NCBI GenBank assembly: GCA_003054695.1
Contig: QAZA01000050.1
Location: 248,001 to 312,000 of the forward strand
DNA: 64,000 nucleotides
Direction of reading: 5' to 3'
Source: Verrucomicrobia bacterium LW23
Lineage (GTDB): Bacteria; Verrucomicrobiota; Verrucomicrobiia; Methylacidiphilales; UBA1321
In this document: one piece after another, positions 44,947-52,771 of the stretch
How positions within the stretch are numbered: the first letter of the stretch is position 1
How the letters are laid out: each line of letters begins with the position of its first letter
Made by a program: the position numbers and the translations under genes
The notes under the pieces: generated by a model
Databases searched by the model: none
Seen by the model: the letters and a program-made list of their open reading frames with translations, nothing else
Told to the model about the DNA's origin: nothing

Positions 44947-46839
44947 TCAATCCGTTACAAACGATACGCTACGGATGGAAGGGCGTTGGGCCGAGAAGAC
45001 TTGGGTGCGCGTAAACTGCGGCCACTTTGTTGCCGGGTCCGCCGCTTTTTCCGGCGCGCAAAACAGGTACAGCCGTTCCAACACCGCGCCGCCTCCCGGG
45101 GAGCCGTCGTCGCGCTCCGTAACGTACACGGTACCGGGGTAGCGGCCCGTGGCGGTGTACGCCTCCTTGACAGTAAAGGCCTGGCCAAAGAGGAGGAGTT
45201 GCCGGCCCTGAATCTCCGCAAAGTAAAGCCCGGCGGGAAACTGCTGGATCTCGCGCCCCGTGCCGTCAATCGAGGCATAGGCATAGACAAAGCCGCTGGT
45301 GCGACCGCCCGCGGGGCCATCGCCGCCGTGGGCCCGGCGGATGTCGCGAAGCCCAAAGCCAGCCAGCTCCTGCTCGACGGCCTGACCCGCGCCCCCCGTA
45401 CGCCCCGCCTGCGACGGCGTTGCGCCGGCGCCCGGCGTCGCCGCGCCCGGAGAAAGCGCCACACCGGCGCCCCCCTGCGGCGCGCCGTCGGAAGCAGCGG
45501 GCTGCGGATCGGCGGCAGGGCCCGGCGTCGTTCCCCCTGAGGCCAGCGCCCCGCCCTGGGGGGCTGACGCGCCCGGCGAAACGCCAGTGCCACCGCTGCC
45601 AGAGAGCCCCGGCATCATCGCCGCCATCAGCCCCGCGCCCACAAGCGCGCCGGCCAGCAAAAACAGCCAGCGCCCGGAGCCACCCGTGGGCTGGGCCTTG
45701 GCCTGCAGGCCGGTGGTATGGATCGCCACCCAATCCGAGCTGTGGGGGAAACGCACGTGATCGTCACCGTCCAGATTGCCGCCGCGCAGCGCCTCAAGCA
45801 CTTCGTCCTCGCTAAGCGGCCCCACCGCATTGCCGGAGGCATCGGCGGCCAGCCGCACGTAAAAGCCTGCGGTATCGACACTTGCGCCATCGGAAGCTGG
45901 CGTCTGGCCCAAGGCTGCGTCGCCGCCCCCGCCGCCGGCAAGCGGGACGAACGTGGAATCCGGCCGCAGCACGCCCTGCTCGAGAAGCTCGCCGACCGGA
46001 TGCCAGTCCTCCATGCCGTCCTGCCAGTACAGGACGGTCCGGTCGATCTCAATCATGTTCCACATTTGCTGCAGATCGCCCGCCGTAAACGGGCCTTTGC
46101 CTTCCTCCTCAATCACCACATAGTAGCGCGGCACGTCCTCGGCATTAAACGCGTAGCGGCCGGGATCGTCCCACGAGCGCCGCAGGTTCGACTTCCTGAT
46201 ACCGTCAGGACCGTCGGCAGCCCCAGAATCCACCGCAGAAGCCGTTGGCGCCGAAGATGTTAGGGAGGCTTCGGGGACCAATGAGGCCGACGCCGCTACC
46301 GGCGAAGCCTTTGCGTCCGCCGACTGGGCCTCTGACCTGGCCGTCTGCTTTGCGGCCGCCGTTTCGGCGGACTTCTGTTGCTGAAGCTGCTGCGCCTTTG
46401 CGTCGGGTGCTGCCCCGACGCCTTCCGGCCCGTTGCCCGGCACTGGTTTGCCGGTCATCATGGCCAGCAGCGCATCCATCGCAAGTGCCTTGCCGCATGA
46501 CGGGCACACCTTCTTCGCTTCGCCAATGGGGAGCTCCACCGAGCAATGGGGGCAAAAGCGGGTAATCTCCGGCGCTTTGCTCAGGGCCGTCGACACAACT
46601 GCCGCCTTCGTCGCCGTCCCGGTGCTTCCCTGGCCGGAGGCCGGGGTGGCTGAGAGCGCCGTTTCGCTGCTGGTAATCGCCTCCTTGCCCAGGGTGTACG
46701 GAATGCCAAGCAGGGGCGAGCCTAGAAGCGTTACATAGAAGCAATCAATGCCCTCATGGCCCCTGCGCCGCGCAAAAATGGCTGCCGCCACAGCGCAGAT
46801 AAAACAGATCGTTAAGTACCACCCCAGAAATTGTTGCAC
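44947..46839 (-). CDS. Zinc-ribbon and double GYF_2-domain membrane protein
   Basis: About 630 residues from GTG 46839. A further in-frame start at 46887 would overlap the upstream gene. The layout is a membrane helix (GWYLTICFICAVAAAIF), a zinc ribbon (CPHCSVELPIGEAKKVCPSCGKAL), an Ala/Gln-rich linker, one GYF_2 domain (YYVVIEEEGKGPFTAGDLQQMW…VLYWQDGMEDW), a second GYF_2-like domain (FYVRLAADASGNAVGPLSEDEV), a membrane helix (WLFLLAGALVGAGLMAAMM), a Gly/Pro-rich linker and a C-terminal domain. GYF domains bind proline-rich peptides. It follows the PBP1C-like gene by about five bases, so it is likely translated from the same mRNA. Confidence 0.72.
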   Translation of the reverse strand: MQQFLGWYLTICFICAVAAAIFARRRGHEGIDCFYVTLLGSPLLGIPYTLGKEAITSSETALSATPASGQGSTGTATKAAVVSTALSKAPEITRFCPHCSVELPIGEAKKVCPSCGKALAMDALLAMMTGKPVPGNGPEGVGAAPDAKAQQLQQQKSAETAAAKQTARSEAQSADAKASPVAASASLVPEASLTSSAPTASAVDSGAADGPDGIRKSNLRRSWDDPGRYAFNAEDVPRYYVVIEEEGKGPFTAGDLQQMWNMIEIDRTVLYWQDGMEDWHPVGELLEQGVLRPDSTFVPLAGGGGGDAALGQTPASDGASVDTAGFYVRLAADASGNAVGPLSEDEVLEALRGGNLDGDDHVRFPHSSDWVAIHTTGLQAKAQPTGGSGRWLFLLAGALVGAGLMAAMMPGLSGSGGTGVSPGASAPQGGALASGGTTPGPAADPQPAASDGAPQGGAGVALSPGAATPGAGATPSQAGRTGGAGQAVEQELAGFGLRDIRRAHGGDGPAGGRTSGFVYAYASIDGTGREIQQFPAGLYFAEIQGRQLLLFGQAFTVKEAYTATGRYPGTVYVTERDDGSPGGGAVLERLYLFCAPEKAADPATKWPQFTRTQVFSAQRPSIRSVSFVTD

Positions 46840-46843
46840 GCAC

Positions 46844-49057
46844 CTATTGTGCCCCAAAAACGGACGGCTGCCAAGTGCCCTTGCCATAACGACTCACCCC
46901 GGCACTCGCTACCGCATGGCCCGACCCCGGCGCGCTCCTCGCCTCGGGGCCGGTGCCTGGCAAAAAGTACTCCTGAAAGCGAAGGGGCGCCGCCGGCTGA
47001 GACAGCGGCATGGTCGAGAGATCCCCGCCAAAAGGCTCCGGACTGCCCGCCCACAGGCGCGGCCCCGCCACGTCGCCATTGCCGGCCGGGGTTGCGCCGG
47101 TATGCGCCAAGGAAACATCCCGCACCTGCAGGACGGCGGGAACCACGCCGGCGATGGCAACAGGCGGCTGAAGCGCTCCGTCGCGTGGCAGCAGGCGCAG
47201 GGCAACCTCGCGCGCCATCGCTGAGGCGGCGGCAAACGCGGTCTCCGGCACAAGCGCGCTGCCATCCACATTGCCCACCCACACGGCTACCGTGTGCCGC
47301 CCGGTTATCGCCACCGCCCAGGCGTCGCCGTTGCCGGGGGAGATCGACGCGAACTCCGGCAGATAGGGCCGCTCCGCAGTAAACGCGCGGGTGCCGCGGC
47401 CCGGGCTTCGCGCCAGCATATCCAGCACCAGCAGGGCTGAGCCCCGGCCGATCATGTGCTCGGCATGGGGTACGGCCACGGGCACCGCCGCAGAAGATCC
47501 TGAAGCCGTGCGGGTTACGGTGCCATCAAGTGGATCAGCTCCGTCTCCTGAGGGCAGCCGGGCAGGCGCCGCGCCCGGCGCAAATGTTTGCCGATACCGC
47601 ACCGGAAGCCGAACGCCGCCGCGCGCCAGGCCGCCGCAGGTGGAGGCGAGGTCAATGAGGCGTACGGGCGTCTTGCCAGCCTCCAGCTGGGCCTCCATCG
47701 TTTGCTCTCCTGTACGATCCAGCCCACGCAAGCCCCACAGACGCAACCGGTTAACGCACGCATCCGCCCCCGCCAGGCGGATGACGGACAAAGCCGGCTG
47801 TGGCAGTGCGCGCCGAAGGGCCTCGCGGCTGAAAACGCCGGATGCCGGCGCTTGGACGGCAGGCGCGGTGCCGGATGCCGGCACGGCCGCCTCCGCAGCG
47901 GGCGTGGCGTCGGAGATCAGCGGCAGTTGCGTGGCGGCCGTAATGAGTCGGCGGTCGATCGCCTCGGCATACAGCAGCGGATAGAGCATGGCGCCGCTGG
48001 GGCGCTCCAGCAGGCAGCCGTTGACCATGCCGTCGGGCGCGGTGTAATCCGGGCTGCCGGCCATCGCGGATACGCCGCCCGTGTCGTTGTCCAGAATAAC
48101 CGCCGCCGCCTGCCTGGCGCCTGCCTTGGCAAGGCGCGCAAGCCACTCGCGCACAACGCCTTCCGCCAATGGCTGCACGTCCAGGTCCAGCATCGTGGGG
48201 ATTACCGTGGTGCCCGCCGTCGGCACCTGGTCGGCCACCAGGGCGTCGGCAAAATGCGGCGCCGGGTGGGGGGGCTCCGGCTTGCGGATGGCCGGCGGAT
48301 GCGCCACCAACCGTGCCGCCTCCGTATCCGTAACAACGCCAAGCTTTTGCAAGCGGGCAACGGCCCGGCGGTAGCGGACGAGCGCGGCCTGCGGATTGCG
48401 CCACGGATTGTACCGGGTAGGCGCCTGGGGGAGGCCCGCGAGGAGAATCGCCTCGGCCAGCGTCAGCTCGCGCGGCGTTTTATCGAAGTAGGCGCGCGCG
48501 GCGGCCGCGGGCCCGACGCGGCGGTTGCCATAGTGGCTGCGATTCAGGTACTCCTCCAGAATGCGCTCCTTGGTCCACGTCCGCTCCAGGCGCATGGCGG
48601 CGCACATTTCATATATTTTACTGGAAAACAAACGCCCTTCGCGCCGGCTGGCCAGTTTAACCACCTGCTGGGAGATCGTGGACGCGCCCGAGATAATGCG
48701 CCCGTGCGCTATGTTCCGCACCGCGGAGCCGGCGATGGAGCTCCAGTCCAGCCCACCGTGCGAGTAGTAGCGGTGATCCTCCAGCGCCACCGTAACGGCC
48801 GGCAGCCAGTCGCCCATGTCGCGCAGGGCCAGCGGCTCCGTCGCGCGCGCCTCCGCCACCGTAATGCGGGCGAAGGGGCGGCCTCGCACATCCAGCAGCT
48901 CAATAATCCCCGGCGACGGGTTGTCGAGATCCCCCGGCAGCGGCGCAAAATAGACAATGCATGCCACTGCCAGCGCCACGGCCCACAGCCCCACCCGAAG
49001 CCAGGGGCGGCGCCGCCATTGCTCGCGCGCGGTCGAGATCCAGTGGCACGGATTCAT
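46844..49057 (-). CDS. PBP1C-like glycosyltransferase with degenerate transpeptidase domain
   Basis: 737 residues. An N-terminal membrane helix (GLWAVALAVACIVYFAPL) precedes the GT51 domain (about 60-240) with Glu93 in EDHRYYSHGG and GASTISQQVVK. The transpeptidase domain begins near 300. Where PBP1C has STLK, this protein has A356-M-L-Y359 in RPSGAMLYPLLY. The SxN segment reads ALP and the KTG region is replaced by ASISPGNGDAWAV. The GT should work and the crosslinking site should not. The gene is coupled to the GYF-domain gene. Confidence 0.8.
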   Translation of the reverse strand: MNPCHWISTAREQWRRRPWLRVGLWAVALAVACIVYFAPLPGDLDNPSPGIIELLDVRGRPFARITVAEARATEPLALRDMGDWLPAVTVALEDHRYYSHGGLDWSSIAGSAVRNIAHGRIISGASTISQQVVKLASRREGRLFSSKIYEMCAAMRLERTWTKERILEEYLNRSHYGNRRVGPAAAARAYFDKTPRELTLAEAILLAGLPQAPTRYNPWRNPQAALVRYRRAVARLQKLGVVTDTEAARLVAHPPAIRKPEPPHPAPHFADALVADQVPTAGTTVIPTMLDLDVQPLAEGVVREWLARLAKAGARQAAAVILDNDTGGVSAMAGSPDYTAPDGMVNGCLLERPSGAMLYPLLYAEAIDRRLITAATQLPLISDATPAAEAAVPASGTAPAVQAPASGVFSREALRRALPQPALSVIRLAGADACVNRLRLWGLRGLDRTGEQTMEAQLEAGKTPVRLIDLASTCGGLARGGVRLPVRYRQTFAPGAAPARLPSGDGADPLDGTVTRTASGSSAAVPVAVPHAEHMIGRGSALLVLDMLARSPGRGTRAFTAERPYLPEFASISPGNGDAWAVAITGRHTVAVWVGNVDGSALVPETAFAAASAMAREVALRLLPRDGALQPPVAIAGVVPAVLQVRDVSLAHTGATPAGNGDVAGPRLWAGSPEPFGGDLSTMPLSQPAAPLRFQEYFLPGTGPEARSAPGSGHAVASAGVSRYGKGTWQPSVFGAQ

Positions 49058-49335: not shown

Positions 49336-51297
49336 TCAGGCCTCGGTCACCACACCGCGATCGGGCTGGATCTCCCAGCAGTCGCTGCGGAACGGACTGG
49401 CGGGCAACCCCTGATGGTTGGCCAGGTTGCAGCCCAGCGGGTTATCCGCCCAGGCGTAGCGCACCGCGACGGGCCGGGGCACGGCATCGCTGCGCACCAC
49501 AACGGTAGATCCGGTCACCTCCGCCAGCGCTGGGTGGAACACACGATCGTCGCCCGCCACAAAAAAAGTGCGCAGAGGAGCCCCATCCGTGGTGGATAAA
49601 CCGTCCTCGGCGTGGTGGAAATCGACGGTGACACGGCCATCCTCCCCAAAGCTAAAACCGCGAGCTGCAGGCGGCGGGTAACATGTTGCATCCCCGTAGG
49701 TTATACGCAACGCTGTGTTGGCCAGCCGCAAGCCTACAGGCATTTTATCCTTGGGGTGGATATCTTTTTCCTCGCCAACGTCAATAGTCACCGCAAGGCC
49801 AGTATCCGCAAGGCCCTCGTGCGCCCACAGCTGGCTTTCGCGCAGTCGCGCCCACTTGCTGCTTTGCTGGTGCTCCATCGGCGCCATGTAGTTGGGCAGC
49901 TGCACGGTGTAGAACGCCATGCGCGGCATGCCCCAGTGGCGGCGCCAGTCCAGAATCAGCTCGCGAAGCAACCCGCCATACAGATCATGCTGCGACGCGT
50001 TGCTCTCGCCCTGATACCAGATGGCGCCCTTGAGCGCGTAGGGGATCAGCGGGCGGATCATGTTGTCGAACAGAATGTGCGGAGAGTTCTGCTCGCCATG
50101 GCCCATAATGTGCGTCTCGCGCACCTGGCCCAGATTGTGCTCCACCGCATAGCGCCACCCGCCGGCCAGGGGGATCGCCTCTTCGGGCGCGTCAACGGGA
50201 TGCACCTTCATGCTCTGCGCGGGGCCGCGCAGGCCGCCGTCGTGCACAAAAGAAAACGCGCGCACGGCAATGCTGAGCGTGCCGCCTGTGCCAAGTACTG
50301 CGGCAGGGACAACGTACTTGCGCTCGACGTTCCACCACTGCTCCTCGCGCCCCTTGCCCGTGCGGCCCACTTCCTGCCCATTCACATAAGTAATGTCCTG
50401 CTTATCAACGGTGCCGATGCGCAGCGAAAGCTCGCGCCCGGCCCACGCCGCGGGCACCGTAACAGTGCGGCGGAACCACAGCACACCGCTGAATTCCAGG
50501 CCCGCGTACTGCCAGGTGGTCGGCAGGTCCATCACCGGCCACGCGGTGTCATCAAAAGCGGCGGATGCCCAGCCCTTCTCCACGCCCGTGTTGCCTGGGT
50601 CGGTCGGCAGCGTACTCACACGGCCGTCCTCGCCGGTCTTGATCATCGTATCCCAGCGCGATTCGCCCCACGCCGCGCTCTCGTACGTGGCCAGCCAGTC
50701 CTGCACCGGAGTGTGCATGGCCAGCGCCGAACGGCTAAGCCAGGCCTGGATAAACGTGCCGCCCCAGGCGCTGCTCAGCACGCCGATCGGCACGCCCAGC
50801 GCCTTGTGCAAACGGCGCGCAAAGGCAAATGCCACGGCGGAAAACATCAGTACAGATTCGGGCGTCGCGTTCTCCCAGCGCGCCTCCACTGTGGATTGCG
50901 GCCCCAGTACCGCCGTGCGCGGCACATTAAAGAAGCGGATCTCCGGGTACTCCGCGGATTTCACATCGTCCTCCACCACCGGCAGGCTCGCCGCCATCGT
51001 CCAGCCCATGTTGGACTGGCCCGACGCCAGCCATACCTCGCCCACCAGAATATTCTGGAGAGTCACGCGATCGCCGCTTTCCGAGGCCTCCACCACCAGG
51101 CTGTGCGGCCCGCCTGCCGCCAGGGGCGGCAGCCGGAGAAGGAACTCGCCATGCGCGTTGCTGATGCAACAGGCGACATTGCCGGCGATAGAAGCCTTGA
51201 CGATAGCGTTGGGGGCGGTCCATCCCCACACAGGCAGCGTCTGATCGCGCTGCAAAACGGCGTTATCCTGAAAGGGCGAAGCTAGTTGAAGACTCAT
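49336..51297 (-). CDS. Sialate O-acetylesterase-family carbohydrate esterase
   Basis: 653 residues. Family motifs are PVWGWTAP, GEVWLASGQSNMGW with the catalytic serine, GVLSSAWGGTFIQAW and GAIWYQGESNA. A beta-sandwich domain (about 260-360) is inserted. There is no signal peptide in this start. These esterases remove acetyl groups from sialic acids or from plant-glycan side chains, so the substrate is open. Upstream of its ATG (51298-51592) no gene is seen. Confidence 0.87.
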   Translation of the reverse strand: MSLQLASPFQDNAVLQRDQTLPVWGWTAPNAIVKASIAGNVACCISNAHGEFLLRLPPLAAGGPHSLVVEASESGDRVTLQNILVGEVWLASGQSNMGWTMAASLPVVEDDVKSAEYPEIRFFNVPRTAVLGPQSTVEARWENATPESVLMFSAVAFAFARRLHKALGVPIGVLSSAWGGTFIQAWLSRSALAMHTPVQDWLATYESAAWGESRWDTMIKTGEDGRVSTLPTDPGNTGVEKGWASAAFDDTAWPVMDLPTTWQYAGLEFSGVLWFRRTVTVPAAWAGRELSLRIGTVDKQDITYVNGQEVGRTGKGREEQWWNVERKYVVPAAVLGTGGTLSIAVRAFSFVHDGGLRGPAQSMKVHPVDAPEEAIPLAGGWRYAVEHNLGQVRETHIMGHGEQNSPHILFDNMIRPLIPYALKGAIWYQGESNASQHDLYGGLLRELILDWRRHWGMPRMAFYTVQLPNYMAPMEHQQSSKWARLRESQLWAHEGLADTGLAVTIDVGEEKDIHPKDKMPVGLRLANTALRITYGDATCYPPPAARGFSFGEDGRVTVDFHHAEDGLSTTDGAPLRTFFVAGDDRVFHPALAEVTGSTVVVRSDAVPRPVAVRYAWADNPLGCNLANHQGLPASPFRSDCWEIQPDRGVVTEA

Positions 51298-51592: not shown

Positions 51593-52771
51593 CTACGCCG
51601 TGGCGGGGCGCCGGTTGGCGTAGCTGACGATCAGGACAATGGCGCCGATAATTGCACCCATCCCCAACAGCAGCAACGGGATACCGATCATCGGACGCAC
51701 CGCCACCCAGGCAATGGCGATGGTCAGCAGCGAAAGGCCGGACGCGATGATGAAGCAGATGATGCCCGTACCAAAGCCCACGATGCCTCCAAAGAAGGGC
51801 ACCACATCGGCAAGCACCGTCAGAGGCGAGACAATCATGTTCAGCCCGACAAGCATGAGGATAAAGCCGATCGCGCGCAAAATCCAGGTCATCATGTTAT
51901 TTTCGGACTGAAGATTCTTGATGACCTCCGCCTTGCTTAGCAGACCGGGGTAGAGCACCTCAAAGTCCTTGCCGGCGCCCGCGTGCCAGGGCTTGAAACT
52001 GCCATTCTCCTGCTGCGCCATGACAGTCACGTCCCCCTCGGGCACCACCGAAAACTTGATGCGCACATCGCCAATGGCGGGCGTCGAAGGGTTGCGGCCC
52101 TTGTAAAAGCCGCCCTCGCTTACCTTAAGCCCATGCTTAACGTCGGCCGGTACAGCTGCAAGTTGTTCCGCACCAACGTTAAACGGCACAAAATTGCGCA
52201 TTGAATCGCGCAGCGCAGGGCTCAACTCAAACTCACCCAGCGAGGCTCCAGCCACCGTCGTGGTGGTGGAAGAATAGGAGAGCCGCTCCGGGTTTGCCTT
52301 GTTGTCCCGCGCGTCCTTGCTGTGGAACTTGGACGAATCGTTGTATTCCTCGTCCCATTTCTTTTCATAGCTGTAGGTGGTCACCGTCTTCTCGCTGCCG
52401 CCGAGTTCTTTCTCCTTCTTCGTCGATTTTTCCTCCACCCACTGATACATCTCAACTGTCCGCTTCAGCCGAATGGCGCTGATGGAAATACCAAAGACAT
52501 CATCCTTAACCTCTTCGTCCGGAACGGCTTTGCCCTTCACGACGACCAGTTTGCCGTTGTTTCCGTCCTCCACTTTATCCGCGGAAACTTCGATCGCGCT
52601 GGAATCGGCCTCAAGGATCGAATTGGCGGTGATCACCGAGTTATATTCATTCCAGCCCAGCACACAAAAGGATATGCCAAACAGGATAAACCCGAAAAAC
52701 ACGCCTTTGATAGACGAACCAATGCGTGAGAACCAGGATTCGCTCGAAACTTCTGAATAGCCGTCGGACAC
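51593..52771 (-). CDS. TMEM43 (LUMA) family membrane protein
   Basis: 392 residues, GTG start with GGAGA upstream. The N-terminal helix (GVFFGFILFGISFCVLGWNE) is followed by EYNSV-like WNEYNSVITANSILEADSSAIEV and a large soluble domain. Three or four C-terminal helices follow (ILRAIGFILMLVGLNMIVSPLTVLAD and FFGGIVGFGTGIICFIIASG…). This order matches TMEM43/LUMA, a nuclear-envelope protein in animals with poorly understood bacterial relatives. The bacterial function is unknown. Confidence 0.85.
   Translation of the reverse strand: MSDGYSEVSSESWFSRIGSSIKGVFFGFILFGISFCVLGWNEYNSVITANSILEADSSAIEVSADKVEDGNNGKLVVVKGKAVPDEEVKDDVFGISISAIRLKRTVEMYQWVEEKSTKKEKELGGSEKTVTTYSYEKKWDEEYNDSSKFHSKDARDNKANPERLSYSSTTTTVAGASLGEFELSPALRDSMRNFVPFNVGAEQLAAVPADVKHGLKVSEGGFYKGRNPSTPAIGDVRIKFSVVPEGDVTVMAQQENGSFKPWHAGAGKDFEVLYPGLLSKAEVIKNLQSENNMMTWILRAIGFILMLVGLNMIVSPLTVLADVVPFFGGIVGFGTGIICFIIASGLSLLTIAIAWVAVRPMIGIPLLLLGMGAIIGAIVLIVSYANRRPATA

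Follow-up and report, generated by a model that had tools for sequence, protein, structure and literature searches.

A PBP1C-like protein of a Verrucomicrobia bacterium with a complete GT51 domain and without the three transpeptidase motifs

By definition, class A penicillin-binding proteins (PBPs) count as bifunctional, combining a GT51 glycosyltransferase (GT) domain with a transpeptidase (TP) domain. For E. coli PBP1c, a role has been proposed in situations that call for additional glycosyltransferase activity, and its overproduction together with LdtD restored labelling in a strain without PBP1b (PMC6131605). The placement of an alpha-2-macroglobulin (A2M) gene next to pbpC is likewise known from E. 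coli (PMC4498604). The PBP gene analysed here lies in the window, a 64,000-nucleotide stretch of contig QAZA01000050.1 from Verrucomicrobia bacterium LW23, whose genome (6.6 Mb, 56 contigs) is the sole one of its genus that we found; automatic annotation would call its product a PBP (Table 1). This protein shares with PBP1C (PbpC, TIGR02073) the membrane anchor, the GT51–TP order and homology over about 600 residues, but differs from it in having no TP motifs, no BiPBP_C domain and no adjacent A2M gene. Its best NCBIfam match is TIGR02073, at 290 bits and thus under the curated cut-off of 494. Common descent with PBP1C is indicated by its match to an intact PBP1C (E 1e-126, 600 residues) and by the position of the protein, which nests in the PBP1C tree. 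The GT51-only activity that we predict for it is that of the MtgA/Mgt/SgtB group (TIGR02070), but the window PBP does not belong to this group by descent or architecture: it keeps a TP-fold domain of about 350 residues, and TIGR02070 scores 104 bits on it against a cut-off of 183.

Table 1. Coordinates, in the window, of the PBP gene, its domains and motif positions, and the two adjoining genes
Feature	Position	Strand	Basis or remark
PBP1C-like protein, GT51 and pseudo-transpeptidase, 737 aa	46844..49057	-	One open frame (ORF listing), profile matches, alignment
N-terminal membrane anchor, residues ~20-40	48938..49000	-	Hydropathy peak; VGLWAVALAVACIVYFAPL
GT51 glycosyltransferase domain, intact, residues 62-235	48353..48874	-	PF00912, E 1.2e-49
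Glu93, GT51 catalytic residue	48779-48781	-	
E150, second GT51 Glu	48608-48610	-	
Pseudo-transpeptidase domain, residues ~286-640	47138..48202	-	Alignment, predicted fold; no PF00905 match
A356-M-L-Y359, at SxxK position	47981..47992	-	Alignment
A417-L-P419, at SxN position	47801..47809	-	Alignment
F569-A-S571, at KTG position	47345..47353	-	Alignment
C-terminal tail, residues 641-737, at BiPBP_C position of relatives	46847..47137	-	No Pfam match; predicted disordered, pLDDT about 30
Double zinc-ribbon/GYF_2 membrane protein, downstream gene	44947..46839	-	Two GYF_2 matches
SASA-type carbohydrate esterase, upstream gene	49336..51297	-	Pfam; at the frequent A2M place of relatives

The two catalytic halves of the protein have fared differently. 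The GT51 domain is the sole Pfam match in the protein (PF00912, 168.6 bits) and, as the initial annotation had stated, contains both Glu93 and the GASTISQQ motif; E150 is what we take to be the second catalytic Glu of GT51. In the TP domain, by contrast, alignments revealed that every catalytic residue has been replaced, with AMLY at the SxxK position, ALP at that of SLN and FAS at that of KTG. PF00905 finds no match in the protein even at E 0.1; on an intact relative it scores 69.5 bits. The flanking segments REAL, RxxDLA, DAW and HTVAVWVGNxDG can still be aligned, in agreement with the earlier proposal that all three motifs had been lost selectively from an otherwise recognizable domain next to a complete GT domain. 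The accompanying statement that the protein is not a truncation holds for the reading frame, which is full, but not for the C-terminus, where BiPBP_C (PF06832), present in the relatives run against Pfam, cannot be recognised and disorder is predicted for the last ~100 residues. Because all seven TP catalytic residues are kept in every relative readable there, chance and misalignment are, on these alignments, excluded as the source of the loss. With the nucleophilic Ser, the general-base Lys, SxN and KTG all gone, the TP domain is expected to be incapable of acylation. Given the lost TP catalysis and the complete GT domain, the natural reading of the window protein is a PBP1C that would now act only as a glycosyltransferase and whose TP domain would be vestigial or a scaffold, crosslinking being left to other enzymes; we assign this reading a probability of roughly 0.68.

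Homologues were sought among close relatives, 384 genomes of the class, 213 genomes of the best-match order and 387 genomes of the phylum; a scan of organism-named genomes gave only one locus, a distant one from Akkermansiaceae. The proteins closest to the window PBP are intact PBP1Cs, and its closest homologues, at about 41% identity, are found in a different order within its class, not in its own family or order. Both the SxxK and the SxN residues are intact in 47 of 47 class homologues, as is KTG in all 46 in which that region is present. When the TP region alone served as query across the phylum, 28 readable loci were returned, 27 of them new and every one intact. The dead TP state of the window PBP is absent from all readable homologues (~70; 47 from the class and 27 further from the phylum). 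Within this sample, comparison of the sequences indicates that it is private to the lineage and, being unique, that it arose there. Conserved loss, which the initial annotation had proposed to look for by alignment with relatives, is therefore rejected, since none of the class, order or phylum homologues read shares it. The observation named there as refuting the proposal, relatives with intact SxxK/KTG, was indeed made, though at different loci; such relatives refute a conserved loss, not the loss itself.

The surroundings of the gene were compared with those of its relatives. The downstream GYF_2 gene is probably co-transcribed and translationally coupled with the PBP gene, because its likely start, an in-frame GTG, lies only 5 nt past the PBP stop codon. 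An A2M-size gene (about 1825-1907 aa) directly precedes the PBP gene, in the same orientation, in six of ten regions with intact relatives, two of the six being identified as A2M by Pfam and the others by size, and mostly overlaps it by ~22 bp. Two of the remaining regions end at a contig edge there and two (L099 and L100) have no A2M gene. This order resembles the YfhM/ECAM–PbpC system of E. coli, whereas the window PBP gene follows the SASA esterase gene and no A2M gene adjoins it. The host genome has four A2M genes (1956-2251 aa; one on contig 17, two on contig 56 and one on contig 1), none of which has a PBP gene nearby; the nearest homologue of the partner type is the 1956-aa protein of contig 56, at ~25% identity. 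The absence of A2M is insufficient as an explanation of the TP loss, as L099 and L100 are intact and also have no adjacent A2M gene. Separately, the window encodes a TMEM43-family membrane protein in a bacterium (51593-52771, minus strand; PF07787, E 1.9e-75).

The same genome encodes another dead class A TP domain, in a 1362-aa fusion protein present in identical copies (contig 9:26088-30173, minus strand, and contig 10:119336-123421, plus strand). On these two contigs, at least about 13 kb of sequence appears identical, in inverted orientation, through a duplication that is either genuine or introduced by assembly. The fusion consists, in order, of GT51, a class A TP, PBP_dimer and an intact class B TP; no motifs remain in its first TP (GALIYP, GMPAYS), and those of its second read SVFK and KTGT. 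Its homologues are spread across the host family and extend to a few further families of the class; they are 1261-1428 aa long where contig ends do not interrupt them, and the first TP is dead in every well-aligned one. Although the replacement resembles that in the window PBP (GALIYP against GAMLYP), the fusion proteins form a separate family, with a dead state conserved among homologues and a second, intact class B TP. Descent of the window PBP from this family is rejected, given its 389 bits to intact PBP1Cs versus about 150. Because the two are separate, at least two origins of dead class A TP domains are implied. In E. coli, PBP2 stimulates the glycosyltransferase of PBP1A (PMC4632607), which makes a covalent link between class A and class B plausible. 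In the open-licence literature searched, we came across neither a comparable dead-TP class A PBP nor a class A/class B fusion, and the conserved dead TP of the fusion family is possibly a better lead than the window PBP.

The change in the window PBP is domain-selective. Among invariant positions, defined as identical in 97% or more of relatives, it keeps 29 of 30 in the GT domain, 33 of 56 in the TP domain and 3 of 8 in the C-terminus; within the TP domain, none of the eight motif residues is kept versus 33 of 48 other invariants (Fisher p = 3.5e-4). Its terminal branch has a length of 0.416 for GT and 1.905 for TP on a single fixed tree; no other tip reaches its TP/GT ratio of 4.58, the next-highest value being 2.12 and the median of relatives 0.84. 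Ala, Pro and Gly together make up 37% of its TP domain, whereas relatives average 27% and reach at most 33%. This enrichment fits decay no less than retention; the fast drift towards these residues argues mostly for relaxed constraint. GC3 along the gene is 0.74-0.83. The 4.6-fold acceleration of the TP domain, its Ala/Pro/Gly drift, the loss of BiPBP_C, the missing A2M neighbour and the other PBPs of the genome are all consistent with a gene that is becoming a pseudogene, its TP and C-terminal domains decaying freely and its GT domain more slowly or no longer mattering. We nevertheless consider this unlikely, because the GT invariants are almost all kept, and because the losses fall mainly on catalytic positions and spare structural ones. 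The actual gene also has no stop or frameshift across the ~450 codons, whereas neutral drift of codons 286-737 to 50-70% retained identity, simulated with an assumed ancestral sequence and mutation spectrum and with indels ignored, gave a mean of 2-6 stop codons and stop-free runs in 0-7% of cases. We regard this difference as moderate, not strong, evidence against decay.

It has also to be considered that, along the lines suggested in the initial annotation for peptidoglycan or a partner, the pseudo-TP domain has been re-purposed and binds peptidoglycan, stem peptides or a partner protein, for example the GYF_2 product, thereby regulating or positioning the GT domain. In the AlphaFold model, the GT domain and most of the TP core have pLDDT values close to 90, which drop to about 30 beyond residue 635; among solved structures, class A PBPs come closest. 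A PBP-like TP core is thus predicted with confidence, with the reservation that the input included 40 intact relatives, from which the predicted fold is partly inherited. This apparently kept fold core would suit re-purposing, as would the probable coupling of translation with that of a membrane-associated GYF_2 protein and the long maintenance, in the same lineage, of the dead class A TP of the fusion protein. However, the dead state of the window PBP is not conserved, its gene has no conserved neighbour and the domain drifts rapidly, which leaves re-purposing distinctly improbable. That an assembly error, frameshift or misalignment masks the motifs is scarcely credible: the assembly is a draft in many contigs, with an identical stretch on contigs 9 and 10, but three separate sites were lost by in-frame substitutions between alignable flanks, and no KTG, SxxKP or SLN-like motif was found in the other frames of the coding strand.

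For a PBP1C reduced to a monofunctional glycosyltransferase, we propose that the membrane-anchored GT51 domain, with its intact catalytic and substrate-binding residues, would polymerise lipid II into glycan strands, and that the TP domain would persist as a folded, fast-evolving part serving at most as a spacer or scaffold. The strands would be crosslinked by other enzymes, such as intact class A or class B PBPs or YkuD-type L,D-transpeptidases. The same genome encodes intact GT51–TP proteins (C24, C25 and C56), two further TP genes with strong matches (on C50 and C45) and YkuD-type genes (12 matches). A broader and rather doubtful proposal is that the lineage has repeatedly turned class A PBPs into glycan polymerases, keeping the pseudo-TP as a regulatory or docking module and drawing GT and TP activities from separate proteins or from the domains of a fusion.

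The private nature of the loss in this lineage limits the weight of the finding. A natural variant in which one half is dead separates the two activities of a class A PBP, and could reveal which non-catalytic contribution the TP domain makes to polymerisation. The window PBP would escape beta-lactams and would presumably remain susceptible to GT inhibitors such as moenomycin.
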